Below are positions 4,965-35,699 of a DNA stretch of 37,884 nt, piece by piece; within the stretch, counting starts at the first letter, position 1, and each line of letters opens with the position of its first letter. The notes beneath the pieces are model-generated. The model saw only the letters and a list, made by a program, of their open reading frames with translations. It was not told the origin of the DNA and did not search any database. A program made the position numbers and the translations under genes. This DNA is from Candidatus Zixiibacteriota bacterium (GTDB lineage: Bacteria; Zixibacteria; MSB-5A5; GN15; FEB-12). Where the stretch lies: NCBI GenBank assembly GCA_020351995.1, contig CP070674.1, positions 2,080,683 to 2,118,566 of the forward strand. Reading direction: 5' to 3'.

Positions 4965-5875
4965 TGAGTTTTGTCAGCGTGCAGGGCCTTGGCAAGAGTT
5001 ACCGTGGTGTCAGGGCGGTTAATGATTTTACCTTTGACGTAAGGCAAGGTGAAGTATATGCGTTAGTGGGGCCCGACGGTGCGGGAAAGAGCACCGTAAT
5101 ACGAACTTTGTGTGGATTGATAGACTCGGACACGGGCGAGGCGTCGATAAATGGTTTCGACTGCCGTAAGCAGTTTAACCACATCAAACCGATTCTGGGA
5201 TATATGCCGCAGGTCTTCTCGCTGTATCCCGATTTGACGGTAACAGAGAATCTGGCTTTTTACGGCGGCATCTACGGTGTGGTAGGCCCTGAATATCTTG
5301 AGAGGGTTGAGTACCTGTATCGCTTCTCGAACCTTAAACCATTCGCCGACCGGCGGGCCCAGGCGCTCTCAGGAGGAATGAAGCAGAAACTGGCGTTGTC
5401 GTGCGCCTTGATGCACCAGCCTAAGATCCTGATTCTCGATGAACCGACCACTGGTGTCGATCCACTATCGCGTCGCCAGTTCTGGGAAATTCTGCTTCAG
5501 TTGAAGGAAGAAGGGGTGACGATTATTGTCTCAACACCATACATGGACGAGGTTGCCCGTGCCGACCGGGCCTGTTTCGTCTTCAGGGGCGAGAAACTGG
5601 CCGAGGGGAAGCCGGCGGAACTTCCCGGACTGTTCGAAGGCACACTGTATTACTTTGACGGCCCGCCGACGATGGAAACCATTGATCGGCTTAACCGGCT
5701 TGGGGATATCCGTGCCCGCCGCTTTGGAGGAGGCGTTCATGTATATCTGAAACGAGGTATTACACTGGATGAGGTTACGCCTGCGTTATCAGAAATGGGA
5801 TTCGATATTAAGGATTTCAATCCGATAAAGCCGGATCTTGAAGACTGTTTTATACAGCTTATGGAGGAATCGTGA
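4961..5875 (+). CDS. ABC exporter ATPase, YbhF N-half type (H-loop degenerate)
   Basis: This 304-residue nucleotide-binding protein has Walker A GPDGAGKST (about residues 36-44), signature LSGGMKQKLALS, and Walker B ILILDEPTTGVDP. The switch segment reads STPYMDEV, where the usual His is replaced by Pro. A ~75-residue C-terminal extension follows the ATPase core. In E. coli YbhF two such domains are fused in one polypeptide; here they are separate genes overlapping by four bases (GTGA). With the next gene it should form an asymmetric heterodimer at the cytoplasmic face, driving the two ABC-2 permeases encoded downstream. The transported substrate cannot be inferred. Confidence 0.92.
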   Translation: MMSFVSVQGLGKSYRGVRAVNDFTFDVRQGEVYALVGPDGAGKSTVIRTLCGLIDSDTGEASINGFDCRKQFNHIKPILGYMPQVFSLYPDLTVTENLAFYGGIYGVVGPEYLERVEYLYRFSNLKPFADRRAQALSGGMKQKLALSCALMHQPKILILDEPTTGVDPLSRRQFWEILLQLKEEGVTIIVSTPYMDEVARADRACFVFRGEKLAEGKPAELPGLFEGTLYYFDGPPTMETIDRLNRLGDIRARRFGGGVHVYLKRGITLDEVTPALSEMGFDIKDFNPIKPDLEDCFIQLMEES

Positions 5876-6624
5876 ACGCCGGGAATGCCGTGGTAATAGA
5901 CAATTTGTCGCGCCACTTCCGGAGTTTCAAGGCGGTCGACAGGATCTCACTCGAGGTGCGAACCGGTGAGACGTTCGGCTTTCTCGGAGCCAACGGCGCC
6001 GGCAAAACAACTACGATAAGAATGCTCTGCGGATTGCTGTCCCCGACCTCCGGAACGGGTACCGTTGCCGGCTTTGACATTAATCGACAGGCCGAAGAGA
6101 TCAAAAAAAGCATCGGATACATGTCCCAGAAATTTTCGCTCTATCCTGACCTGACTGGAAAGGAAAATCTTTCGTTCTATGGTGCCGCGTACGGATTGAC
6201 CAGACAAGAGGTTCGCGAGCGCACGGCAGAACTCACCGACCGATTGAGTCTGGGCGATTTTATCGATCGGCTGACGAAATCCTTGCCGGTTGGCTGGCGG
6301 CAACGGCTAGCCCTGGGAGTATCTCTTCTTCACAGGCCCAGGATCCTCTTTCTCGATGAACCCACCAGCGGAGTCGATCCCGTGTTCAGGCGTAAGTTCT
6401 GGCAGATACTATATGAACTCGCCGAGGAAGGCGTGACCGTCTTTGTCACCACCCATTATATGGACGAAGCAGAGTATTGCGGGAGGATATCCATTATGCA
6501 CCAGGGTAGAATTGTCGAGGCCGGCCAACCGTATGAGCTGATCCGGAAACATCGGTCGGAAAACCTCGAGGAATTGTTTATCGATCTGATTAAGAATCGG
6601 GAAACACTGAATGCAGAAGCTTAG
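5872..6624 (+). CDS. ABC exporter ATPase, YbhF C-half type (signature degenerate)
   Basis: This 250-residue ABC ATPase starts at a GTG that overlaps the previous stop. It has Walker A GANGAGKTT, Walker B ILFLDEPTSGVDP and a normal switch His in TTHYMDEAE. The ABC signature is changed from LSGGQ to LPVGWRQRL. Its partner has an intact signature but lacks the switch His, so the defects fall in the same composite nucleotide site of a heterodimer, leaving one canonical site. The 3' end overlaps the first permease gene by 14 bases, showing translational coupling. Function in the tripartite exporter is well supported; substrate is unknown. Confidence 0.92.
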   Translation: MNAGNAVVIDNLSRHFRSFKAVDRISLEVRTGETFGFLGANGAGKTTTIRMLCGLLSPTSGTGTVAGFDINRQAEEIKKSIGYMSQKFSLYPDLTGKENLSFYGAAYGLTRQEVRERTAELTDRLSLGDFIDRLTKSLPVGWRQRLALGVSLLHRPRILFLDEPTSGVDPVFRRKFWQILYELAEEGVTVFVTTHYMDEAEYCGRISIMHQGRIVEAGQPYELIRKHRSENLEELFIDLIKNRETLNAEA

Positions 6625-7717
6625 GTTCCTCGCTCAAAAAGAATTTCGCCACATCCTGCGCGACCCGCGTTCGTTGGTAATTGTGGTGGTCATGCCCATC
6701 ATGATGACCTTTCTATATGGCTACGCGATCAGTCTGGATGTGGACAATATTGTTATCGGTGTAATAGACTATGACCGTACGGATGAGTCGCAGCAGCTGA
6801 TTGACCGCTTTTACAATTCGGCCTACTTCAGCAAACCCGATGTGAATTCGGAAAGTACCGATCCAGAAACCTGGCTTCTTTCGTCGGAAGCCAAGGCGGT
6901 GATGATCATCAAGCCGGGTTTTGCCGGGTCGCTCCGGGAGAGAAGTGATTTTTCCCTGGGTATGATTGTGGATGGGTCAGATAACACGGTCGCGGCGGCG
7001 GTGCAGAACTATGCATCGGCCGTAGTCAGTAAGTATGCCTTGGACCAGATTCCGGTCGGTAGGGATATCCCCGGGATCACCATATCGACGCAGGTGCTTT
7101 ATAATCCCGACCTTGAGTCTTCCCACTTCTTTGTTCCCGGGTTGGTGGCCATAATATTGATGATGATATCGGCCCTGCTTACATCGATTACGATTGCTCG
7201 CGAGAAAGAAACCGGTACCATGGAGCAACTGCTTACCGCCCCGGTTACCCCGGTTCAGATAATCATAGGCAAGATTCTTCCCTATGTCGGGCTGGCGCTT
7301 CTTGACGGAATCCTGGTGTTGGTGTTTGCCAAGATCGTTTTTGGTGTTCCCTTCGTAGGTTCGTATCTGTTGCTGTTGGCCTTCGGTCTCATTTACGTTT
7401 CCGCGGCGCTTTCCATCGGCATTCTAATCTCATCTTTGGTGAAGACTCAGCAGGTGGCTATGATGTTCGCGCTGGTCACGACCCTGCTTCCCTCGGTGAT
7501 GCTTTCTGGGCTGGTTTTTGCCATTCGCAACATGCCGCCGGTCTTGCAGGGGTTGGCTCAAATCGTGCCGGCCAAGTATTTCGTAACTGTTATACGCGGT
7601 ATAATGCTCAAAGGGGCAGGGCTGGGAACGCTTGCCTTGAACGGTCTGGCTCTGTTGTTACTGATGGCCTTCTTGATGACTGTTGCCGCCCGGAAATTCA
7701 ATACAAGGATTGACTGA
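6611..7717 (+). CDS. ABC-2 type permease, YbhS/YbhR-like (first)
   Basis: This 368-residue inner-membrane protein has one N-terminal membrane helix after a conserved amphipathic start (LAQKEFRHILRDPRSL). An extracytoplasmic domain of ~150 residues follows, then five C-terminal membrane segments from about residue 175. The sequence EKETGTMEQLLTAPVTP just after the second membrane helix is the hallmark of the ABC2_membrane_3 family. With the second permease it should form a heterodimeric channel contacting the membrane-fusion lipoprotein. The gene overlaps the upstream ATPase and is two bases from the next permease. Confidence 0.92.
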   Translation: MQKLRFLAQKEFRHILRDPRSLVIVVVMPIMMTFLYGYAISLDVDNIVIGVIDYDRTDESQQLIDRFYNSAYFSKPDVNSESTDPETWLLSSEAKAVMIIKPGFAGSLRERSDFSLGMIVDGSDNTVAAAVQNYASAVVSKYALDQIPVGRDIPGITISTQVLYNPDLESSHFFVPGLVAIILMMISALLTSITIAREKETGTMEQLLTAPVTPVQIIIGKILPYVGLALLDGILVLVFAKIVFGVPFVGSYLLLLAFGLIYVSAALSIGILISSLVKTQQVAMMFALVTTLLPSVMLSGLVFAIRNMPPVLQGLAQIVPAKYFVTVIRGIMLKGAGLGTLALNGLALLLLMAFLMTVAARKFNTRID

Positions 7718-24413: not shown

Positions 24414-24430
24414 TGTTTCAGATTGAAACA
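24414..24430. promoter_or_regulatory. Palindromic operator candidate upstream of the cyclase operon
   Basis: TGTTTCA-GAT-TGAAACA is a perfect 7-base inverted repeat about 100 bases upstream of the kinase start. The 258-base gap between the methyltransferase and the kinase holds no other strong structure. The site does not match the CRP/FNR consensus; the binding protein is unknown. Confidence 0.45.
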
Positions 24431-24528: not shown

Positions 24529-26058
24529 ATGCGGATAAACAACCTGAGTTCGACCAACCCCGCATTAGACCTGGTGCTTATTCGCCTCGCTGAAGAGTAC
24601 TCGCTCTTGAAAGCGTACCAGCCCGGCGAAACTATATTCACCGAGGGTGAGCCAGGCAGTACCATGCTTCTTATCCTGAGAGGAACGGTACGCGTTCTAA
24701 AGCAGGGTAGTGAGAAGATTGCGCCGCGCTTGATCGCGATGCGCGGACCGGGTGATTTTCTGGGCGAGATGGCCCTGGTGGAAGAATCACCGCGTTTTGC
24801 CACTCTGGTCGCTGGTACGGAATGTGAGGTTCTCGAATTTTCCAGAGAGAACTTCGAAAAGGTAATTAGCGAACAGCCCGCTCTGGCAACCCGCGTGCTT
24901 CGCAGTCTCAGCAGCAAACTGAGGGAATCCGATTCGTCTCGTCTGGCCGAACTTGAGGAGAACAACCGTCTTCTGACAACGACCAACGAGGAATTGATAC
25001 GCCTCAACTCGTTTCTTGACTGCGTGATTGACCAATCACCCAGTGCCATCCTGCTTGCGACAAGAACCGGTGATATCTTCCGCATGAACAAGGCCACGGC
25101 AAGAATGTTCGAGATACGGGATCCCGATGAAGATATCAACATCACATATCTCTTCTCCGATTTTGAATACTTTGAGGATACTTATCGTGAAACAGAATCC
25201 TGGCACGGCGAGGTTACCGGGGTGCGCAACGGTGAGAAATTCCCCGTCTACCTGTCCGTGACATCGATGTCGGGACACGGCGACAATCACCTGCACCTGA
25301 TTATCTGTCAGGACATTTCGGAATTAAAACTGCTGAACCAGACCATCGTTGATATTGAAAAGTACGAGAGCGCCCAGGAGACGGCCAGTGAGCTGGCCCA
25401 CGATCTCAAAAACTATCTTGGTGTTCTGATCGGGAACGTGGAGCTTGCCCTGACACGTCTCTCCGACGAGCAGAAAATCCAGCTGAAGAACTCGTTCCAG
25501 GCTATCAGCGATTCATCCAAGCAGATTGTTCAGTTCGTTGAGAATATGATGATATACCGGGATGACAAGAGTGAGTTCCGGAGTGTGAACCTTCCTGCCG
25601 TGGTTAACGCCGTCTGGCGTTTCTGCCGTTCGCAGGTAACCTTTCAGACGATCAAGTTCGATTACGAGGTAGCTCCAGACTTTCCCGCCCTGATATCGGT
25701 CAAGGAGGACCAGATGCGGCGCGTTATGGTAAATCTTCTGGTCAACGCCGCTGAGGCTCTGTCACAGACTGACGTTGGCGAAGAAAAACATATCATAGTC
25801 AGATTGGAAAACGCGCCGGAGACCGACAGTGTCATCATCAAAGTGTCCGACAATGGGCCCGGCATCGCAAGCGAGCATGTCCCCAAACTTTTCAGGGAGC
25901 GTTTCACCACCAAGCGGGGTGGACACGGCATCGGATTAATGTCAGTAGCCAAAATAATCCAGGCCCACGGCGGGAAAATCAAAATCGACTCGAATCTCGG
26001 GCAGGGAACCACATTCGAGATGAGTCTGCCGAGCAGGAGGGAGAATCCAGATGATTGA
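24529..26058 (+). CDS. Histidine kinase with cyclic-nucleotide-binding and PAS domains
   Basis: This 509-residue soluble protein has no membrane segments. Residues ~10-130 form a cNMP-binding domain with a phosphate-binding cassette GDFLGEMALVEESPRFATL; Glu80, which contacts ribose, and Arg89, which contacts phosphate, are both present. A coiled-coil linker (~135-160) and a PAS domain (~162-265) follow. The dimerisation domain has phosphoacceptor His291 in ELAHDLKN. The catalytic domain has an N-box (VMVNLLVNAAEAL), G1 (VSDNGPGIA) and G2 (GGHGIGL). It could report cyclic-nucleotide level through phosphorylation; no response regulator is encoded nearby. The last eight bases overlap the DUF3307 gene. 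The ribosome-binding site at ATG 24529 is weak (AAGAG). Confidence 0.93.
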   Translation: MRINNLSSTNPALDLVLIRLAEEYSLLKAYQPGETIFTEGEPGSTMLLILRGTVRVLKQGSEKIAPRLIAMRGPGDFLGEMALVEESPRFATLVAGTECEVLEFSRENFEKVISEQPALATRVLRSLSSKLRESDSSRLAELEENNRLLTTTNEELIRLNSFLDCVIDQSPSAILLATRTGDIFRMNKATARMFEIRDPDEDINITYLFSDFEYFEDTYRETESWHGEVTGVRNGEKFPVYLSVTSMSGHGDNHLHLIICQDISELKLLNQTIVDIEKYESAQETASELAHDLKNYLGVLIGNVELALTRLSDEQKIQLKNSFQAISDSSKQIVQFVENMMIYRDDKSEFRSVNLPAVVNAVWRFCRSQVTFQTIKFDYEVAPDFPALISVKEDQMRRVMVNLLVNAAEALSQTDVGEEKHIIVRLENAPETDSVIIKVSDNGPGIASEHVPKLFRERFTTKRGGHGIGLMSVAKIIQAHGGKIKIDSNLGQGTTFEMSLPSRRENPDD

Positions 26059-26404
26059 CCTGTTATTCTTTCTGCTGCTGGGACATTTTCTCGGTGACTT
26101 CGCCCTGCAAAGTGACCGGGTTGCGGCACGCAAACAACAGTCGAAGAAAGTGCTTACGTACCACGTTCTGATATACACGGCGATTCTGGCGGCCTCTTTG
26201 TTCGTGGGGCTCACGCTCAACGGCAATCATTCGTTCTTCGCGGTCAACACCTTGATCGTGCTGCCGGTTATTTTTCTCGCGCACTGGACACAGGATTACC
26301 TGAAGGCTTACAAGTTTAACGGCACCAAACAAGCATTCTATTTCGATCAGGCGGTCCACGTGGTCATCCTGTTCGCCATTAGGATCCTTGCTTACAATGG
26401 GTGA
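26051..26404 (+). CDS. DUF3307 family membrane protein
   Basis: This 117-residue protein has about four hydrophobic helices. It carries the family's conserved elements: LGHFLGDFALQSDRVA near the N-terminus, a central YHVLIY, and a C-terminal FDQAVHVVILF with an Asp-Gln-x-x-His pattern. DUF3307 proteins have no established biochemical function; some are encoded beside SatD or regulatory genes. Here it is sandwiched between the kinase and the cyclase, overlapping each by eight bases, so all three proteins should be made in a fixed ratio. It is the operon's only membrane protein and could tether or sense for the two soluble partners, which is inference. Confidence 0.82.
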   Translation: MIDLLFFLLLGHFLGDFALQSDRVAARKQQSKKVLTYHVLIYTAILAASLFVGLTLNGNHSFFAVNTLIVLPVIFLAHWTQDYLKAYKFNGTKQAFYFDQAVHVVILFAIRILAYNG

Positions 26405-29400
26405 TTGGCAGACCGACAGCAGAAAACTAACACCATATATCCCTCGTACTATTCTGGAATGGTACCAGACATCGTCCGGGGACGAGGTGCACGTAATCAC
26501 CAAGCATAACGGCTGTGTGGTGTGCATCGATGCGTCCGGTTTTACGGCTCTCACCCGCCAGCTCTCCGCCATGGGGAAGGAGGGTCCCGAGGTTCTCACG
26601 GGTGTTCTGAATCTTTTTTTCGAGGCGGTCTCCGATGTCATCTTCCAATATGGCGGAGATGTGCTGAAGTTTGCCGGCGACGCTCTGTGGGCATACTTCC
26701 CCGAATATCCGGATCTCGCGGTATTCTTTGGAGACATTCTCGAAGCCGTTGAATCCGTGAATTCGAATCCGAGTCTGAAACACAAAACCGAACTGAGCGT
26801 CCATATCGGCGCCGAATCCGGTGAGTTCTTTCTGGCATCACTCGGCGATCGCGGGATCAGGCTGGAAGCCGAGCCACTGGGAAATCTTCTCGGAACCGTT
26901 TACCGTGCCTGCGACGTTGCCGGAGACAACGAGTTCGCCATCGGACCAGCGCTGGCACACCAGTGTGCCGGTATGCTCGAACTTCAGCCTGCCGACAGTG
27001 GATTCAGGCTTGTTACACACCGGCGCTCGGAAGGAAAGCGGCGAGCTGATGCTGACGATTCATACCGCGTTGGCCCGATCGGAAATCGGAAGGTTCTCAG
27101 ATCGTACATTCCCCAGGATGTTCTATCAAGAATTGAAACCTCCGCTCCATCAATGTCTGTCCAGGGAGAACATCGTCAGGTAGTCGTACTCTTTGCCAGC
27201 TTTGAGAACAATATAGGACGCAAAACCGATGATCCGATTATCGCGGTGCAGGTCTTGAACGAAAAGCTCCTGAAGGGCTTCGAGGCCATCCGTGACTCGC
27301 ACGGCAGTATCGCTCGCATTGACCCGTTCAAACGTGGTCACAAGTTGCTGGTCCTGTTTGGCGCTCCGGCGAAGCGCGAAGATGATGAGATTAATGCCCT
27401 TCTGTCGGCGAGAAAACTGTTGGAGTTGAACGACTCTTCGTTTCGAATCAGGATCGGGCTGGCCATAGGTCCGCTGTTTTGTGGCGATGTTGGAGCCGAG
27501 CGGCGCCGCGAATATACCGTGATGGGGGATGGTATAAACCTTGCTGCCCGTTTGATGGCCAAGGCCCAATGGGGCGAAATGATCATTAGCCCCGAGCTCA
27601 AGCCACGCCTCCCGCATGAGGTTATGACCGAACCCGTGACCCTGTCATTGAAAGGAATCGGTGATGGAATCCAGTGTCACCGGTTCGTCGATGTATCGGA
27701 GGCGTCAGCTGGATGTGATAAATCGGTGACTATCGTGGGACAGGAAAAGGAACTCGAAGCGCTTGAGCATGCCTGGCACCAGACCCGGCAGGGGCAGCAG
27801 GCCTCGGTTATTATAAGCGGCTCCGCTGGCGTTGGGAAAACCACGCTGGTGCAGAATTTCCTTGCCCGGAAGGAAGATGTCGAGCCCATAATTCTGGCGT
27901 GCAAGAACACCCGACTGTTCGGCTCCGGTTGGCTGACGCGAAAACTCTTTCAGGAATTGGTCCAGACACACCCGGTTGCTTCCTCGCAGGGTTTCGAGGA
28001 CTTCATACTTGGTCGGGTCGAACAAAGGTGGCATCCCCTTCTTGAGGACATCGTACAGACCGGGGCCGAAGACAACGAATGGACCCGTGGCCTGACTCCG
28101 GAATTGCGGATAGAGAAAACCCGAGAATTACTCGCCGATCTTATTCGGGTTCTGGTGACCTCTCCGCGACCCATCGTGATGGATGACTTCGATATGTCTG
28201 ATGAGATATTCAAAGGTTGGATGCTTTCAATGACAAATGATCTGGCCGATGTTCCCCTGATGCTGATTATGGTCACTCGTGATTCTGAGGCTCTGCGGCT
28301 GCCTGATGACACGGGAGGCTCTCGGGCGGTGGTGCGCGTTACCGGTCCTACAGACAAGCAGTGGTGGGGTTACTTTTCCGCGAATTTCGCCGGCGCAAGA
28401 CGAGAGAAAGAGCTTCTCGAAAGGATTCTGGCCGCCTCGGACCGCAATCCCCATTTCATCATGCGGTTTCTCGGCCAGTGCATGGCCGAACAGAAGCTGG
28501 TCAAAAACGAAGTCACGGGCAAGTGGGAACTGAGGGCCGACCAACTCCAGATATCGGTGCCCGACGGTCTGGCAAACCTTCATCTTTCAGTATTTGATGC
28601 CCTTCCGGAGATCGAGCGTACTATCATGAAGGCGGCGTCGGTAGCCATTGGCGATTTTTCGGCCAAACTCTTAAGTCAGGGCCTTCCCGATATAGGCCTG
28701 GCCACTATCCAGACTCACCTCGAGTCACTGACGAAATCCGGCCTCCTTGAGCGCAGCCCGACTGACAATCGCTTTAGTATTGCGCATACGTCCATGCGCG
28801 AGTCGATTTACCAGTGTATCTCCGAATCGCAGCTACGGCGTCTGCATCATCGTTTCGCGGAGATCATTGAAGCGAAGAATTCCGATAAACACGCCGCTCT
28901 ACTGGCCCATCACTTCTACCGCGCCGGGGTCGCCGACAAGGGTTTCCGGTACTCTCTTGACGCGGCCAGGAAATCCTTCGACCGATACGCGCTCACCGAG
29001 AGTGCGGAGTTCTTCGGCCAGTGTATACGGATATTGAACGAGCGGGATGCCAGGGTAATCGACGCGGCCGAACAAATATCTTTTTATGAGAACTATGCCA
29101 GTCTTCTGTTTTTTGAAGGACGTTACAAGGAAATGCATCCGTGGTTACGCAAATGGCGGAAGCTCGGCAGGTCGTCTGGATTGATCAAGGAAAGTATAAT
29201 GGCTGTTGTTGAAACCGCCAGGGTCCTGTGGAGTCAGACACGTTATTCGCGAAGCCGGCGGGTGTTGAAATATGTTCTGTCCTACGCCGAGGACAATGAC
29301 GCCGACGATGTCAGGGTCCGGGCTCTTATGATTCTATGTCAGCTCGAGCGTCGAAGTGGAGAGTTTACAAGAGCGCAGGAAGTTGGCAGTCAGGCGGTGG

Positions 29401-30485
29401 AGTTGGCCACGCGCCTCAATGACAGCAACCTTGTCGCGGATGCTTATACCAAACTGGGTCTCTCATACTGGGGAGGAGGTAAATTGGACGAAGCTGCCAC
29501 AGCCTTTCAAAAAGCAATTGAATCCGGGGACGTGGATAAGCGGGATCTAGCAGTAAGTTATAACAATCTCGCCATTATTGAACAGGATCGAGGTCACTTT
29601 TTGGAATCCGAAAAACTCCTCATTCAAGCCCTCGAAATCGCCCGAAACATAGGTGATAAGCGCAATGAAGCTTACTGTTCTGGAAATCTGGCGAATCTTT
29701 CACGAGAATTCGGGAAAATCACAAGAGCCGAGGAACTATTCCTTCAGGCCAACCTGATCTTTGAGCGACTGGGTGACCGTCACGCTCACTTTTACACCGT
29801 TGGCAATCTTGGCGATATTGACCTGATGAGAGGCGAAATCTCCTCCGCCGCACGCAGGTTCAATGCCGTCATGGAGTTTGCCAGAAAGGTTGAAGATAAA
29901 GAGCTTATAGCAGAATGTAACGTTCGCTATGGGGAACTGGCATTCTTTACGGGAGATATAGAGAAAGCTAAAGCCATGTATGAAACCGCCATCGATATAG
30001 CCGGGGAGATCGGATCCGCGGAATATTTGACTCGGGCCTGTATCGGTCTGGCTCGTCTTCTTATTGGGCAGCGTAATCATGATCAGGCTTTAGAGGTGAT
30101 TGCGAGGATATCCCACATGGCCAGAGAAAACAATGCCATTCTGGCAGAGAATGAAGCTGCCTTCCTGACCGGTGAGCATCACCGAATAAGCGGCGAACCT
30201 GATAAAGCGACCGCAAGTTATCGCCAGACTTTGGATTATGCCCGTAGCCAAGACCTGTTTGAACTTCGCCTGAAATCGGCGGTTCGACTTCACGAAACTG
30301 ATCCCTTGGCTCGAGACGATACCACCCGCATTCTTAGTGAACTCCGACTTTACTTCGTGGAACACAATAGCCTTCCAGCCTGGGACCAGCTGGTTAATTC
30401 CGCCTACTTTTCCTACTTTGCCGAGACCCTCAAGGAAATCGCCGGTGTCGGTCAGTTGTGCTCTCACCCCACTGTATTGGAATAA
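26397..30485 (+). CDS. Double class III nucleotide cyclase-ATPase-TPR protein, soluble adenylyl cyclase-like
   Basis: The ATG at 26397 overlaps the DUF3307 stop; a TTG three codons earlier is less likely. The 1362-residue protein has cyclase domain C1 (~38-200), with metal Asp45 in VCIDASGFT and Asp95 in LKFAGDALW. Domain C2 (~258-430) has a candidate adenine-contact Lys312 in DPFKRGHK and the block EYTVMGDGINLAAR with Thr374, Asn381 and Arg385. A P-loop ATPase has GSAGVGKTT at ~475-483, and TPR repeats occupy ~950-1330. Each half supplies different active-site residues, so one intramolecular site is expected. Order and residue spacing match animal soluble adenylyl cyclase (ADCY10). The likely product is cAMP in the cytoplasm. 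The last gene of a coupled operon with the CNB kinase. Confidence 0.92.
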   Translation: MGDWQTDSRKLTPYIPRTILEWYQTSSGDEVHVITKHNGCVVCIDASGFTALTRQLSAMGKEGPEVLTGVLNLFFEAVSDVIFQYGGDVLKFAGDALWAYFPEYPDLAVFFGDILEAVESVNSNPSLKHKTELSVHIGAESGEFFLASLGDRGIRLEAEPLGNLLGTVYRACDVAGDNEFAIGPALAHQCAGMLELQPADSGFRLVTHRRSEGKRRADADDSYRVGPIGNRKVLRSYIPQDVLSRIETSAPSMSVQGEHRQVVVLFASFENNIGRKTDDPIIAVQVLNEKLLKGFEAIRDSHGSIARIDPFKRGHKLLVLFGAPAKREDDEINALLSARKLLELNDSSFRIRIGLAIGPLFCGDVGAERRREYTVMGDGINLAARLMAKAQWGEMIISPELKPRLPHEVMTEPVTLSLKGIGDGIQCHRFVDVSEASAGCDKSVTIVGQEKELEALEHAWHQTRQGQQASVIISGSAGVGKTTLVQNFLARKEDVEPIILACKNTRLFGSGWLTRKLFQELVQTHPVASSQGFEDFILGRVEQRWHPLLEDIVQTGAEDNEWTRGLTPELRIEKTRELLADLIRVLVTSPRPIVMDDFDMSDEIFKGWMLSMTNDLADVPLMLIMVTRDSEALRLPDDTGGSRAVVRVTGPTDKQWWGYFSANFAGARREKELLERILAASDRNPHFIMRFLGQCMAEQKLVKNEVTGKWELRADQLQISVPDGLANLHLSVFDALPEIERTIMKAASVAIGDFSAKLLSQGLPDIGLATIQTHLESLTKSGLLERSPTDNRFSIAHTSMRESIYQCISESQLRRLHHRFAEIIEAKNSDKHAALLAHHFYRAGVADKGFRYSLDAARKSFDRYALTESAEFFGQCIRILNERDARVIDAAEQISFYENYASLLFFEGRYKEMHPWLRKWRKLGRSSGLIKESIMAVVETARVLWSQTRYSRSRRVLKYVLSYAEDNDADDVRVRALMILCQLERRSGEFTRAQEVGSQAVELATRLNDSNLVADAYTKLGLSYWGGGKLDEAATAFQKAIESGDVDKRDLAVSYNNLAIIEQDRGHFLESEKLLIQALEIARNIGDKRNEAYCSGNLANLSREFGKITRAEELFLQANLIFERLGDRHAHFYTVGNLGDIDLMRGEISSAARRFNAVMEFARKVEDKELIAECNVRYGELAFFTGDIEKAKAMYETAIDIAGEIGSAEYLTRACIGLARLLIGQRNHDQALEVIARISHMARENNAILAENEAAFLTGEHHRISGEPDKATASYRQTLDYARSQDLFELRLKSAVRLHETDPLARDDTTRILSELRLYFVEHNSLPAWDQLVNSAYFSYFAETLKEIAGVGQLCSHPTVLE

Positions 30486-30731
30486 GCCAACAAAAATCAC
30501 AGAATATCGCCAATTGTTCATCCTTTGTGTGATCTTCGTCAAAAATTGAACACTGTCAAAAGGTTTTGTGATCTAATTGATTAACACCACCGTTAGCATG
30601 ATGATGTAGATTTTCCACGCAACGGCCTTCATGTTGCTTCATTCTGGAACACCGAAAAAGGTCCTGCCGAAAGACCTTTGAAAGACCGAAAGAAAGACAA
30701 GTTTGAATAGGTTTGAGGAAAGGAGCGCTTT
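30486..30731. other. Gap between cyclase operon and lipoprotein array
   Basis: No gene is present in these 246 bases. TTGCTTCATTCTG within 30633-30650 is nearly duplicated ahead of the second lipoprotein gene. A single TGTGATC half-site occurs at 30567-30573. No clear intrinsic terminator for the cyclase operon is visible, so read-through into the first lipoprotein gene is possible. Confidence 0.5.
30633..30650 (+). promoter_or_regulatory. Upstream element shared by lipoprotein genes 1 and 2 (copy 1)
   Basis: GTTGCTTCATTCTGGAAC lies 81 bases before the first lipoprotein ATG. ATTGCTTCATTCTGAAAC at 31623-31640 lies 70 bases before the second. The two differ at only two of 18 positions. It may be a regulatory site or a remnant of duplication of the gene plus its leader. 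Confidence 0.4.
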
Positions 30732-31316
30732 ATGAAAGGCAAGCACGGTAACCGATACGGGGCACCCTGGCGCTTGATCGCGCCACTGGTGGCCATTCTT
30801 TCTCTGGCAGTTATCTTCGGGTTGCCGGGATGCAGCGACCAGCCTCTTGATGTCAATACTTCGCAGGAAGATGTCAGCTTCTTCGACCTTCCTTTTGACG
30901 AGGCCATAGCGAAAAAAGGTCTTGAGTATGATGCTGTTTTCGGAACGGAGGACTATATTGCGGCCGAAGATGGCGGTACAATTGCCATCAATGGCCACGG
31001 TGCCATCTGGTCATTCCAGGTCTTTCCGAATTCGATCCCGAACGATGTAAGGATTACGGTCAGGATCTACATCGTCGAGGATACCCCCGAGAAGACAACG
31101 GTTATTTATGAATTTGGCCCCGATGGGCTGGAATTCAGCGTACCCGCGTTGCTGACTCTGGATGCTGATGCGGTAGCTGGAACGAACGGCCAAACCATTG
31201 ATTTCTACTATCTCAACAAGAACCGGTGGGTATATCAGGGGACATTTAATCGAACCGGTGACGATGAGTTTGTCATCCCCATTCACCATTTTTCGAGGTA
31301 TGGCAGTGGCCGATAA
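30732..31316 (+). CDS. Paralogous lipoprotein 1 of 6, ZU5-like
   Basis: This 194-residue lipoprotein has a signal peptide with basic N-region and lipobox G-L-P-G-C (Cys ~34). A short acidic segment SQEDVSFFDLPFDEA follows, then a beta-rich domain. The motif YEFGPDGLEFSVPALLTLD resembles the P-x-G-x-x-F-x-x-P-x-x-L core of ZU5-type beta-sandwich domains. The domain ends with FYYLNKNRWVYQG and HHFSRYG. The same blocks recur in the next five genes. AGGAG precedes the ATG. It is predicted to be periplasm-facing and outer-membrane anchored (Ser at +2). Function unknown. Followed by a terminator, so it is probably transcribed alone or with the cyclase operon. Confidence 0.85.
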   Translation: MKGKHGNRYGAPWRLIAPLVAILSLAVIFGLPGCSDQPLDVNTSQEDVSFFDLPFDEAIAKKGLEYDAVFGTEDYIAAEDGGTIAINGHGAIWSFQVFPNSIPNDVRITVRIYIVEDTPEKTTVIYEFGPDGLEFSVPALLTLDADAVAGTNGQTIDFYYLNKNRWVYQGTFNRTGDDEFVIPIHHFSRYGSGR

Positions 31317-31362
31317 CAGAGAGTGGTAAATTCCGACCATTGACCAATTATATCAAACAGTT

Positions 31363-31397
31363 AACCCGGGGTCCCATGAAAGGATCCCGGTTTCTTT
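31363..31397 (+). terminator. Terminator after lipoprotein 1
   Basis: AACCCGGGGTCC (31363-31374) pairs imperfectly with GGATCCCGGTT (31382-31392), with one bulge and one G-T wobble. It is followed by TCTTTT. Confidence 0.65.
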
Positions 31398-31710
31398 TGC
31401 ACTTCAATAACTGCGTGCAGACCTCCCTGACAAAGGCATTCTTGCTTGGAAGATTCCGATACGGTATGGCTAGCGTCCCATAATTTACGCCGGAAATTAG
31501 TCGGCGGTGAAATTGTGATACACCCTATGCAAACATTGCACATGCCCCCAACCGACCCGAAGACAGATAGATAAGGCACAGGATAACCCTCCTCTGTGTT
31601 TTTTTGGGGCAGCGGTCTGATGATTGCTTCATTCTGAAACGCGCTGAGAAATGGCGCTGGTTTAGAAGAAGAAAACGAATTTTTATTCGGCTATGAGAAA
31701 GGACGAGAAA
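31398..31710. other. Intergenic region between lipoproteins 1 and 2
   Basis: About 310 bases without a gene lie between the terminator and the next start. It contains the second copy of the TTGCTTCATTCTG element (31623-31640). A short minus-strand frame here has no ribosome-binding site or recognisable features and is not called. Confidence 0.5.
31623..31640 (+). promoter_or_regulatory. Upstream element shared by lipoprotein genes 1 and 2 (copy 2)
   Basis: ATTGCTTCATTCTGAAAC matches 16 of 18 bases of the element at 30633-30650 and sits at a similar distance from its gene. No copy was found ahead of lipoproteins 3 to 6. Confidence 0.4.
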
Positions 31711-32328
31711 ATGGCTACAAAAATCATTCAATCAAGGGTGGCAAAATGGGGCTTGTTAATTTCCGCACTAGCGGTCTTCGCTCTCATCTCGGGGCTTTAC
31801 CTGCCCGGGTGTAGCGAGAATCCCGCCATCCCGTCGGGTACCGACCTTTCTCAGGATGAGACCAGTTTCTTCGACCAGCCGTTTGACGAGGCGGCTTTTG
31901 CTCGGGCGGTAGAACTCCAGGCGGTAGTTGACGTGGAAGTTCTGTATGAGGAAGGGCTGTTTACAAGCTTGGACGGAGGGGAAATTGTCATCGGCACCGC
32001 AGGTAATTTTCAGGAATTCGTTGTTTATCCGTACTCCGTGCCCTACGATGTCACGATCAGTCTTGAGATTACCAGCCTCCAAAGCAAGAAGAATGACGAT
32101 GTTGCCATAGTATATGAATTCAAGCCCGACGGGCTCGAGTTCTTGATTCCCGCCGAACTCAAGATCAATGTCGCCAAAGTGCTCGGTAAAAGGGCCACCT
32201 GTCTTAGATGGTATTACCTCAACGAGCAGACCGGTATCTGGGTCTATCAGGGACAATTCTGTGCCGACCCTGAGACGGGCTTCGCGACTGTTCCCGTCGA
32301 ACACTTCTCAAGGTACGGTGCTGAGTAA
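31711..32328 (+). CDS. Paralogous lipoprotein 2 of 6, ZU5-like
   Basis: The start is ATG at 31711, supported by AAAGGAC eight bases upstream; the frame opens six codons earlier at 31693 without such a signal. The ~205-residue product has a lipobox Y-L-P-G-C, an acidic segment SQDETSFFDQPFDEAAF, a beta domain with YEFKPDGLEFLIPAELKI, then WYYLNEQTGIWVYQG and EHFSRYGAE at the very end. Two extra cysteines (TCLRW, FCADP) in the C-terminal third could form a disulphide. Predicted outer-membrane lipoprotein of unknown function; a clear paralogue of its neighbours. Own terminator downstream. Confidence 0.85.
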   Translation: MATKIIQSRVAKWGLLISALAVFALISGLYLPGCSENPAIPSGTDLSQDETSFFDQPFDEAAFARAVELQAVVDVEVLYEEGLFTSLDGGEIVIGTAGNFQEFVVYPYSVPYDVTISLEITSLQSKKNDDVAIVYEFKPDGLEFLIPAELKINVAKVLGKRATCLRWYYLNEQTGIWVYQGQFCADPETGFATVPVEHFSRYGAE

Positions 32329-32359
32329 ATTAAGCAGAGAGTAACTAATAACCGCTAAC

Positions 32360-32387
32360 CCCGGAGCTTCCCGCTCCGGGTTTTTTT
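32360..32387 (+). terminator. Strong intrinsic terminator after lipoprotein 2
   Basis: CCCGGAGC and GCTCCGGG form a perfect 8-bp stem with a 5-base loop, followed by seven T residues. It lies 31 bases after the stop. Confidence 0.93.
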
Positions 32388-32694
32388 ATGATGGCGCGGT
32401 GGTTGGGCGCTTTCCCGTTTGGATAAGGCTATGGCCCCGTCACCAGAAATTATCGGATATTCCCCATATTGAAAGCGGTAATGTTCGTTCGCTCTGGTTC
32501 TGACCAGCTCCAGTCAAAATTTGCACACCCATATATCTTCTTGTTAACGAACAGGATACATTGACGCAAATTGCCGGCGTGTGAATCTTTGGGTCATCGG
32601 CTTCCCTTTTGCTCCAAATGCAGGCAGGAGAAAAGAACATAAAAGAAACGTTTTGAGAAAGTAATACTAATTATCAAATAACGAGGAGGATGCC
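32388..32694. other. Intergenic region between lipoproteins 2 and 3
   Basis: Just over 300 bases without a convincing gene. An opposite-strand 66-codon frame (32440-32640) has no ribosome-binding site or recognisable features. The end carries AGGAGG ahead of the next start. No promoter could be fixed with confidence. Confidence 0.5.
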
Positions 32695-33384
32695 ATGAAA
32701 ACAAGACCGACACCATCGAAAATGCTTGCACGGGGGGCGTTGGTACTTTTCCTGGCAGCTTTGGTGTTCAGCTTGAGCTGGTTACTGACCGGCTGTGACA
32801 GCAACTTGACCAGCGTAGAGAATGTCGAGTCCCAAGAAGATGTCAACTTCTTTGAGCTGACCTACGACCCGGTCGAACTGGCCAAGGGAAACGATGTCAC
32901 CATAGAGAGCGAAGAAACATTTGAGGCCTGGATTTCTGTCTCGGAGGGTGGTGTCATCCTTCTGGACGAGCCCGATGTGGTTAAGACCCTGGATGGTATT
33001 GAAAGACTCGACGTGCTCGACGGCGGGGGAGAGACACTCGATGCCTTTATAATTCAGCCGTATTCGTTTGTTTCTGACACCGTCTTTACGTTCACAGTCA
33101 CCAAGCTGGTGACAGTTGACGGCGATTTGCCCATCATTTTTGACTGTAATCCTGACGGATTGATGTTTACCAAGCCTGCCATCCTTCTCATTAATGCCGA
33201 AAGAGATTTTGGCAAGAAGACGGAAACAGTTTGCTTCTATTACCTCAATGAGACCACCAACAAATGGGTGCTTCTCGAGGAGGTGGCGGTGGTCGATGGA
33301 TTGGCCGCTACGCAGATGATCACGCACTTCTCCAAGTACGGGGTCGACGCGCCCAAGAATCAGGGAAAACCAGCAGGCATATAA
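32695..33384 (+). CDS. Paralogous lipoprotein 3 of 6, ZU5-like, longest form
   Basis: This 229-residue protein has an N-terminal signal with lipobox L-L-T-G-C followed by Asp at +2, which in enterobacteria would favour inner-membrane retention; the others carry Ser, Glu or Gly there. The acidic segment is SQEDVNFFELTYDPVEL, then a domain with an extra ~20-residue insertion (KTLDGIERLDVLDGGGE) before the strand AFIIQPYSF. The core motif is degenerate but recognisable (FDCNPDGLMFTKPAILLI), followed by FYYLNETTNKWVLLE and THFSKYG. AGGAGG precedes the ATG. Function unknown. Flanked by its own terminator. Confidence 0.85.
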   Translation: MKTRPTPSKMLARGALVLFLAALVFSLSWLLTGCDSNLTSVENVESQEDVNFFELTYDPVELAKGNDVTIESEETFEAWISVSEGGVILLDEPDVVKTLDGIERLDVLDGGGETLDAFIIQPYSFVSDTVFTFTVTKLVTVDGDLPIIFDCNPDGLMFTKPAILLINAERDFGKKTETVCFYYLNETTNKWVLLEEVAVVDGLAATQMITHFSKYGVDAPKNQGKPAGI

Positions 33385-33415
33385 TCAGTCGGCAATCTCT
33401 TAGGAGAAAGTATGT

Positions 33416-33449
33416 AGAGGACAGGCGAAAATGCCTGTCCTCTTTTTTT
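33416..33449 (+). terminator. Strong intrinsic terminator after lipoprotein 3
   Basis: AGAGGACAGGC and GCCTGTCCTCT form a perfect 11-bp stem with a 6-base loop, followed by a run of T residues. Confidence 0.93.
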
Positions 33450-33733
33450 GTCATCGACTGTCAAATTTGAGAATCGGATCCCGCCAATAATGTGTGGTAT
33501 CCCCCCAATATTCTTGACCGAAATTCAGGTTGCGTTTCAACCTTGAACTGGCCTGTGCAATTCTAAGCCACGGCCCTAACCTCAATCCGTACAGCCATAT
33601 GAGTTCACTCCACAGTGCGGGGTGTAGGTTTTTCACCCATTGGCCCAGGCGTTGCATCAGTTCATATCGAAACAGTAGATAGGTACGCCTATCGATTCGT
33701 GGATAATGAAAATGTCAGTTTAACGGAGGCACC
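33450..33733. other. Intergenic region between lipoproteins 3 and 4
   Basis: Roughly 280 bases. An opposite-strand 68-codon frame at 33451-33657 (beginning MQRLGQWVKNLHPALWSELI) has protein-like composition but no ribosome-binding site and no recognised family; it could be a gene remnant. Otherwise nothing was identified before the ACGGAGG site of the next gene. Confidence 0.4.
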
Positions 33734-34369
33734 GTGTCGATACAGAAACCTCACTTAGTATCAGCGAAGCGGCGAACTGTGCTGCTTGGTCTATTTGTTT
33801 TTGGGGGCTTGGCTTTGGGGTTGATCTTTGCCGGATGTAGCGATAATGGTCTGGTTGTCAATAATGATTCGTATGAAGACCAGGTCAGTTTCTTCGATCT
33901 ACCGTATTACCCGGATGCTGTGGCCAGGCGTACCGACCTGTCCGACGCCACCTTCAAAAAAGTGGTATCCAGGCTGCTCACTGACCAGGGTGGTGTTATA
34001 GCCCTGAATGATGATGAGGACGCAGAAGTCTTCGTCGTGGTTCCGGGCTCGTTCCCGGAAGATACGACTTTCACCATCGATGTTACCAAGCTGGTCACCA
34101 CCGACGGCGAGATGCCGGCGATATACGAGTTCGGTCCGGATGGTCTGCAGTTCTCACGACCCGCGGTTTTGAGGCTGGACCTTGAGGTTCTGTTCGGGAA
34201 AAATGCAAAGGCCGTTGAGTGGTACTTTCTAAATGAACAGACCAATTGCTGGGAGTACCTGATGACCTGTGAGGCCGATGACGCGCGGATTGCCTGCGTG
34301 CCTATCTACCACTTTTCAGCATACGGGGCGAAGAACAAGGGCGCCGAGCCAGCCGTGGACGCGAGGTAG
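33734..34369 (+). CDS. Paralogous lipoprotein 4 of 6, ZU5-like
   Basis: This 211-residue protein starts at GTG, with CGGAGG upstream. The signal ends with lipobox I-F-A-G-C-S. The acidic segment is EDQVSFFDLPYYPDAVA. The beta domain contains VVVPGSFPEDTTFTIDVTKL, YEFGPDGLQFSRPAVLRLD, LFGKNAKAVEWYFLNEQ and YHFSAYG, ending with a short Ala/Glu/Lys-rich tail. Three cysteines in the C-terminal third (NCWEY, MTCEA, IACVP) differ from the other copies. It begins the closely packed 4-5-6 group, with only 33 bases to the next gene, so these three are probably one transcript. Confidence 0.85.
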   Translation: MSIQKPHLVSAKRRTVLLGLFVFGGLALGLIFAGCSDNGLVVNNDSYEDQVSFFDLPYYPDAVARRTDLSDATFKKVVSRLLTDQGGVIALNDDEDAEVFVVVPGSFPEDTTFTIDVTKLVTTDGEMPAIYEFGPDGLQFSRPAVLRLDLEVLFGKNAKAVEWYFLNEQTNCWEYLMTCEADDARIACVPIYHFSAYGAKNKGAEPAVDAR

Positions 34370-34402
34370 CAAATTAAGTAGCACATAAATGCAGGAGGGA
34401 TA

Positions 34403-35035
34403 GTGGCCGTACGCAAAACAAGGGACGCTTCGAATAACTATATTCGTACTATAATACTTCTGGCGCTGAGCATTGGCGCACTGACACTGTTATCTGTCGG
34501 CTGTGAGGAATACGCCGTTGTTTCGGAAGGTGATTCCGGAGACAGTGTCAATTTCTTCGATGTTGTATACAACCGCGATGCTCTGTCGACACGACCGGAC
34601 GTATCCGATATACAGAGCAGCAGCTTCGAATCACGTCTCTCGGCGGACAAGGGTGGTATGCTACCGCTGCATGATGCTGCCGAGATACAATCGTTCGTGG
34701 TGTTACCTGCTTCCATTCCCTCCGACACGACGTTTAGTGCGGAAGTCTTGAAAATAAAAACCGTTGACAGAAAGACGGTCATGGTCTACGAATTTGGGCC
34801 TGATGGACTTGTCTTTTCTCGCCCGGCCGTCCTGCGACTCAACCTGCGCGAAATCCTCGGCATAGGCGCCTCTTCGATAAAATTCTACGGGTTAAATGAA
34901 GACACGGCTGAGTGGGTGTACCTGGGGACCTATGATTCCGACACGCAGAACATAGTCAATGTGCCCATAAATCACTTCTCGGTTTACGCAGGATCGGGTG
35001 ACGGTTCCGACCACGAAAAAGACGGTCAAAAATAA
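34403..35035 (+). CDS. Paralogous lipoprotein 5 of 6, ZU5-like
   Basis: This 210-residue protein starts at GTG after AGGAGGG. The lipobox is L-S-V-G-C, with Glu at +2. The acidic segment is GDSVNFFDVVYNRDAL. The domain contains ESRLSADKGGMLPLHDAAE, YEFGPDGLVFSRPAVLRLN, KFYGLNEDTAEWVYLG and NHFSVYAG, with a polar C-terminal tail. It is closely related to copy 6 at both protein and DNA level, pointing to the most recent duplication in the array. Its end is 40 bases before the copy 6 start. Confidence 0.85.
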   Translation: MAVRKTRDASNNYIRTIILLALSIGALTLLSVGCEEYAVVSEGDSGDSVNFFDVVYNRDALSTRPDVSDIQSSSFESRLSADKGGMLPLHDAAEIQSFVVLPASIPSDTTFSAEVLKIKTVDRKTVMVYEFGPDGLVFSRPAVLRLNLREILGIGASSIKFYGLNEDTAEWVYLGTYDSDTQNIVNVPINHFSVYAGSGDGSDHEKDGQK

Positions 35036-35075
35036 GCCTTTTTTTGGTTCGTGGACAAACCAATATAGAAGCGCT

Positions 35076-35699
35076 ATGAAAATGATGCGAAAATCTGGAT
35101 ATGTTTCGGAGGCGCGGATAAGTACGATCCTGATGATGGTGCTGAGTATTAGCGCTCTGGCGCTGCTACCCGTGAGCTGCGGCGATAATGGAATTATCCC
35201 GAGCAACGATTCCGAAAGCCAGGGGGACTTCTTCGACTTACCCTTTGACGGTGATGCCCTGTCAAAGCGTGGGGATATAGTCAGGATCGAGGAAAGCCGC
35301 TTCGATTCGCGTCTCTCGGCCGATGACGGCGGTGTTGTACCGCTGCATGACGTCGCCGAAGTGCAGTCGTTTGTGGTACTACCCGAATCTTTTTTGGCCG
35401 ATACGACATTCACGGTGGCGGTCTCAAAAATTATAACCACCGACGGAAGTACATCGTTCGTTTATGAATTCGGCCCGGATGGGCTGGTCTTCTCTCAAGC
35501 GGCGGTCCTCAGGATAAATGTGGCGGCGCTGTTTGGTCCAAACGTTTCATCAATCAAGTTCTACGGATTGAACGAACAGATCGGCCGGTGGGTATATCTG
35601 GACACGTACGAGGCGGATGATGAAGATATGGTTTATGCTTTGGTCGAGCATTTTTCGAGCTATGGCACAGGCACAGGCACTGGCGTTGGCACCAAGTAG
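35076..35699 (+). CDS. Paralogous lipoprotein 6 of 6, ZU5-like
   Basis: The start is placed at ATG 35076 (two further ATGs follow at 35082 and 35085); the frame also runs back to a GTG at 34998 inside copy 5, which would spoil the signal peptide. The ~207-residue product has lipobox L-P-V-S-C, Gly at +2, and an acidic segment SQGDFFDLPFDGDALSKR. The domain contains DSRLSADDGGVVPLHDVAE, YEFGPDGLVFSQAAVLRIN, KFYGLNEQIGRWVYLD and EHFSSYG. It ends with a Gly-Thr repeat tail (GTGTGTGVGTK). The ribosome-binding site is weak, suggesting coupling to copy 5. Confidence 0.82.
   Translation: MKMMRKSGYVSEARISTILMMVLSISALALLPVSCGDNGIIPSNDSESQGDFFDLPFDGDALSKRGDIVRIEESRFDSRLSADDGGVVPLHDVAEVQSFVVLPESFLADTTFTVAVSKIITTDGSTSFVYEFGPDGLVFSQAAVLRINVAALFGPNVSSIKFYGLNEQIGRWVYLDTYEADDEDMVYALVEHFSSYGTGTGTGVGTK

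Follow-up and report, generated by a model that had tools for sequence, protein, structure and literature searches.

A conserved gene trio in Zixibacteria encoding a histidine kinase with a cyclic-nucleotide-binding domain, a DUF3307 membrane protein and a tandem class III cyclase

The Candidatus Zixiibacteriota genome studied here (a single contig of 3.61 Mb) encodes a histidine kinase with a cyclic-nucleotide-binding (CNB) domain, a DUF3307 membrane protein and a tandem class III cyclase in three consecutive overlapping genes, and the same arrangement is found in nearly all Zixibacteria genomes that carry DUF3307. The operon is probably a circuit leading from a cyclic nucleotide to a phosphorelay, in which the cyclase would make the messenger, the CNB-kinase would read it and DUF3307 would act as their partner. 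The features of the window, which is the whole 37,884-nucleotide stretch of DNA that was analysed, are collected in Table 1.

Architecture and conservation of the trio

Adjacent genes of the trio overlap by eight nucleotides (26051-26058 and 26397-26404), as an earlier sequence-only reading had described, with the cyclase start taken as the ATG at 26397; the mechanical ORF list places it at a TTG at 26388. The gene identities given in that reading were also borne out. The kinase has an intact cNMP cassette; E80 and R89 of the CNB phosphate-binding cassette are invariant in 29/29 orthologues, and the middle gene matches DUF3307 (PF11750) at 68.8 bits against a cut-off of 23 (E=6e-19). The third gene encodes a double class III cyclase, its second domain (C2) being recognised by Pfam as Guanylate_cyc and its first (C1) by alignment to soluble adenylyl cyclase (sAC). 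Terminator-like sites in the window occurred at the level of shuffled sequence, and the promoter-like sites lay mostly within genes or on the opposite strand, so neither kind is put forward as a feature of the locus.

Table 1. Coordinates of the trio, the palindrome copies and the lipoprotein-like genes in the window.
Feature	Position	Strand	Basis or remark
CNB-PAS-histidine kinase	24529-26058	+	509 aa; ORF, Pfam and orthologue residues
DUF3307 4-TM membrane protein	26051-26404	+	117 aa; Pfam and AlphaFold2 model
Tandem class III cyclase-AAA-TPR protein	26397-30485	+	1362 aa; Pfam and sAC alignment
Palindrome GTTTCA-GAT-TGAAAC, candidate operator	24415-24429		exact; 114 nt upstream of kinase start
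Candidate operator	30636-30650		2 mismatches; 96 nt upstream of lipoprotein gene 30732
Candidate operator	31626-31640		1 mismatch; 67 nt upstream of lipoprotein gene 31693
Candidate palindrome copy	33534		2 mismatches; 200 nt upstream of lipoprotein gene 33734
Lipoprotein-like gene 1	30732-31316	+	lipobox-like N-terminus
Lipoprotein-like gene 2	31693-32328	+	family member
Lipoprotein-like gene 3	32695-33384	+	family member
Lipoprotein-like gene 4	33734-34369	+	family member
Lipoprotein-like gene 5	34403-35035	+	family member
Lipoprotein-like gene 6	34998-35699	+	family member

A search found DUF3307 in 32 of 132 Zixibacteria genomes, and the neighbourhoods of the 31 other DUF3307-bearing genomes were scanned with the domains of the window. 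Whether the neighbourhood is conserved in relatives, a question raised by the sequence-only reading, is answered by the recurrence of all three genes, with order and strand unchanged, in 29/32 of these genomes, a count that includes the window and several loci in which the kinase or cyclase is cut by a contig end. A thirtieth trio is possible at locus L108, where kinase and DUF3307 are followed by the end of the contig. The two remaining loci depart from this pattern: at L081 the gene preceding DUF3307 is SatD, and at L109 it is a different cyclase-AAA-TPR gene. Because the same order recurs in so many genomes, the trio is more than a chance or local accident.

The trio spans ten families (f1, f3, f5, f6, f9 and f15-f19), and pairwise protein identity among its orthologues falls to about 20%, which argues for selection. 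Intergenic gaps at the loci measured range from -13 to +28 nt if inflated longest-ORF starts are disregarded. A class III cyclase is present in 37/132 Zixibacteria genomes, 30 of which also have DUF3307 (Fisher p=1e-20, a value that overstates the evidence because the genomes are phylogenetically non-independent). Kinase and cyclase distances are correlated at r=0.94, with shared ancestry uncontrolled.

DUF3307 and its partners in other phyla

Of the three trio members, DUF3307 is the one most widely associated with cyclase-fold and CNB proteins. In Elusimicrobiota a class III cyclase gene lies immediately upstream of DUF3307 at 27/30 loci scanned, being a CHASE2-cyclase in those examined, and one of the three remaining loci has a CNB-GAF protein. 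The upstream gene in Firmicutes is SatD at 25/30 loci scanned, and a class III cyclase is nearby at three further loci. Among 22 Chloroflexota loci, four have as neighbour a CRP-like CNB protein that retains Glu and Arg, three are next to SatD, and 15, most of them encoding a short form, show neither a cyclase-fold nor a CNB gene in the flanks scanned. Spirochaetota yielded three weak to moderate matches, with no recognised neighbours at the two that were scanned, and the phylum of genome G134 yielded no match among 5 genomes.

The short form in Chloroflexota (about 104 aa; L192-L205) has a recurring neighbourhood of its own without cyclase or CNB genes. DUF3307-like genes are also found in Enterococcus phages (for example AP018715.1 122043-122303), and DUF3307-like proteins are found among viral structures (Ralstonia phage RP12 and Rhizobium phage P9VFCI).

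SatD (PF16264; for example L145 7098-7769 and L081 184-837) is predicted to combine a nucleotidyl-cyclase-like fold with a C-terminal HTH-like region. Its AlphaFold2 model (pLDDT 94.3) gave 26 PDB matches at E<=1e-3, mostly adenylyl cyclases, with TM-scores to the target of up to 0.58; the best of these, again mostly adenylyl cyclases, have E values of about 2e-4 and TM-scores to the target of about 0.56. A sequence-profile comparison with cyclase C2 gave 42.6% probability (P=2.6e-4), which is weak alone. The SatD-DUF3307 pair resembles the trio in joining DUF3307 to a predicted cyclase-like-fold protein, here encoded directly upstream of it, but SatD differs in having the HTH-like region and in being without a kinase or CNB partner.

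The AlphaFold2 model of DUF3307 (pLDDT 94.6) consists of four long helices and has no PDB fold match at E<=0.001. Nine polar residues (H12, D16, Q20, H38, H78, D82, D99, Q100 and H103) are invariant over 33 DUF3307 sequences from Zixibacteria, Elusimicrobiota and Firmicutes, and in the model they are found close to where the helices meet loops 1 and 3. Since most of the basic residues are in these two loops, the positive-inside rule predicts that the conserved site faces the cytoplasm, with the invariant residues together on one face of the protein. The cluster may bind metal or be catalytic.

It is possible, though we propose it tentatively, that DUF3307 represents a novel class of membrane-embedded enzyme or gate in cyclic-nucleotide signalling, able to work with any cyclase-fold partner (class III, CHASE2 cyclase or SatD), and that in Zixibacteria it completes a make-modify-sense circuit read by a CNB histidine kinase. 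The term DUF3307 occurs in a single one of the open-access papers searched for it, which is weak evidence of novelty because the search covered open-access papers only. We consider it unlikely that DUF3307 is instead the core of the locus, a membrane enzyme of an unrelated pathway whose expression is controlled by its neighbours and which does not serve the cyclase-kinase pair. Carriage by phages and the 15 Chloroflexota loci lacking such neighbours would fit this explanation, but in Zixibacteria, Elusimicrobiota, Firmicutes and some Chloroflexota the gene lies next to one for a protein with a cyclase fold or a CNB domain.

Predicted catalytic and ligand-binding residues of the cyclase and kinase

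The cyclase comprises C1 (about 30-235), C2 (about 245-440), an AAA_16 ATPase (about 446-603) and TPRs (880-1300). Pfam reports Guanylate_cyc, AAA_16 and the TPRs, and C1 is not a separate Pfam stretch. Invariant residues, in orthologues with the region present, are D45, K91 and D95 in C1 and R307, D309, T374, N381 and R385 in C2; the metal-binding D45 and D95 and the transition-state N381 and R385 show no variation across the 24-28 orthologues that include the region. Six of the eight, namely D45, K91, D95, T374, N381 and R385, align to sAC D47, K95, D99, T405, N412 and R416. The tandem C1-C2 arrangement with five of these residues (D45, D95, T374, N381 and R385) is one that the operon cyclase shares with mammalian ADCY10 and with bacterial AAA-TPR cyclases of the sAC type, and the pattern of retention indicates that the cyclase site is preserved by selection. 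The position of the sAC bicarbonate residue R176 is variable here and bicarbonate control as in sAC is not claimed.

At the base-selecting position, K334 of sAC is replaced by the invariant R307, and the Thr (T374) is kept as in sAC. The product is possibly another nucleotide, because the adenine-selecting Lys of sAC has become an invariant Arg. That the cyclase makes a pyrimidine or other cyclic nucleotide in place of cAMP or cGMP, to be read by the CNB domain with the logic of the circuit unchanged, seems to us rather improbable. R307 and D309 are indeed invariant in all orthologues with the region, but Lys to Arg is a conservative change, the Thr of the second specificity position is retained, and the separate cyclase at L109 (G074) also has Arg at the base-selecting position.

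The kinase consists of CNB (28-115), PAS (about 171-265), an H-box with H291 and HATPase (392-503). The cNMP_binding, PAS_9 and HATPase_c families score above their Pfam cut-offs, the CNB domain reaching 74.5 bits against PF00027 (cut-off 27.5), and HisKA falls just below its own. H291 is present in 28/29 kinase orthologues, and the ATPase boxes N402/N406, D441-G445 and G465-G469 are kept. In the L092 kinase (5788-7314) the phospho-acceptor His is replaced by Cys, which makes it a possible pseudokinase.

The host genome encodes three PF00027 proteins, and only the operon kinase among them keeps the cassette Glu. The cassettes of the other two read FGAWALFDEEPRVVTA, with Glu replaced by Ala, and VVGWSWLFPPHFRLFD, without Glu, so that, within the families searched, the operon kinase is the sole host CNB protein with an intact cassette. 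The operon cyclase is likewise the one PF00211 (class III cyclase) protein of the host, in a search that covered class III. Just downstream of the gene for a small CNB protein that lacks the cassette Glu (L181, G000:C1:2850912-2851160) are a PAS-domain ORF and kinase-like matches.

The kinase CNB domain may be in other use, for example in an unliganded allosteric role. Least probable of the accounts considered is that the trio consists of generic parts co-transcribed in answer to one stimulus, the cyclase product acting on another receptor and the kinase CNB being a structural dimerisation or PAS-relay domain: the three host CNB proteins, and the CNB domains with other or no ligands described in PMC2246266, would allow it, but it sits poorly with invariant E80 and R89, the loss of Glu from the other two host CNB proteins, a sole PF00211 protein and a gene order that survives wide divergence.

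Candidate operator, proposed circuit and known systems

Six tandem lipoprotein-like paralogues follow the trio at 30732-35699, and their relatives flank the trio on either strand in 12/29 relative loci. The family has no Pfam match above cut-off, and a weak ZU5 match (E=0.11) was found in the relative L106 only. In an intergenic alignment of four congeners, GTTTCA-N3-TGAAAC is conserved before the kinase, with a near copy before the first lipoprotein gene. The kinase-upstream palindrome is present in four of four genus members with 0-1 mismatch and, in two other families, at -114 and -126 of the kinase, and the sites orthologous to 30636 in L110 and L111 have <=1 mismatch and are also at -96.

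The 92 kb surrounding the trio contain twelve palindrome sites (<=1 mismatch), each of them preceding the kinase or a lipoprotein paralogue, against a background of 2 per 800 kb sampled from the same four congeneric genomes, an enrichment of about 50-fold that is partly circular because the motif was first seen in these same promoters. More independent support comes from copies at additional paralogues, from how rarely the motif occurs in the background and from its presence in the two other families. The shared palindrome suggests that the operon and the lipoprotein genes form one regulon. CRP-like half-sites that follow the cyclase gene have no conserved counterpart in relatives and were dropped.

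The biochemistry of the proposed circuit and its direction of regulation we infer from these sequence features. A stimulus received through the AAA-TPR region of the cyclase would turn on the C1-C2 site, which would make a cyclic mononucleotide, most likely cAMP to judge from fold and residues, or perhaps one with another base in view of the Lys to Arg change. The nucleotide would bind the CNB domain of the first-encoded kinase, as its intact cassette suggests, and alter its activity. The kinase would then phosphorylate an unlinked response regulator acting on the candidate operator at the operon and lipoprotein genes. DUF3307, with its four TM helices and predicted cytoplasm-facing His/Asp/Gln cluster, would be a dedicated partner of cyclase-type proteins, most likely anchoring or gating the system at the membrane or acting enzymatically on a nucleotide or lipid.

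The sequence-only reading had proposed a self-contained pathway in which the cyclase product tunes the neighbouring kinase. The tuning is made more likely by the conserved neighbourhood, the intact catalytic and ligand residues and the presence of one class III cyclase and one Glu-bearing CNB protein in the host genome, but self-contained is too strong a term because an upstream signal is needed and no response regulator is linked: judged by gene recurrence, as distinct from a REC profile, only the trio itself and members of the lipoprotein family are widespread at the 29 relative loci. The same reading had assigned no part to DUF3307.

The closest precedent for the trio is XC_0250/XC_0249 of Xanthomonas campestris, a cGMP pathway in which the cyclase adjoins a CNB-GGDEF protein (An et al. 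2013, PMC3770947). In both systems a class III cyclase gene lies beside one for a signalling enzyme governed by its fused CNB domain, a control that is predicted for the trio. The output of XC_0250/XC_0249 is a GGDEF diguanylate cyclase and its ligand, cGMP, was shown biochemically (PMC3770947), whereas the trio has a histidine kinase as its predicted output and is distinguished by DUF3307 as a partner and by the candidate operator that it shares with the lipoprotein genes. Fusions of CNB and histidine kinase are classed as the prokaryotic HisK class in the portion of Kannan et al. 2007 (PMC2246266) consulted, which describes the same domain pairing as in the operon kinase and mentions no linked cyclase or DUF3307. 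Exact-phrase searches of the open-access literature for a cNMP-binding or cNMP-regulated histidine kinase gave no match, which is weak evidence of novelty.

The trio is a specific example, open to experiment, in which a classical second messenger would pass straight to a histidine kinase, its candidate producer and receiver being encoded in one operon. For DUF3307, and for SatD, it provides a first clue to function, and the candidate operator may provide a route to the missing response regulator and to the output genes.
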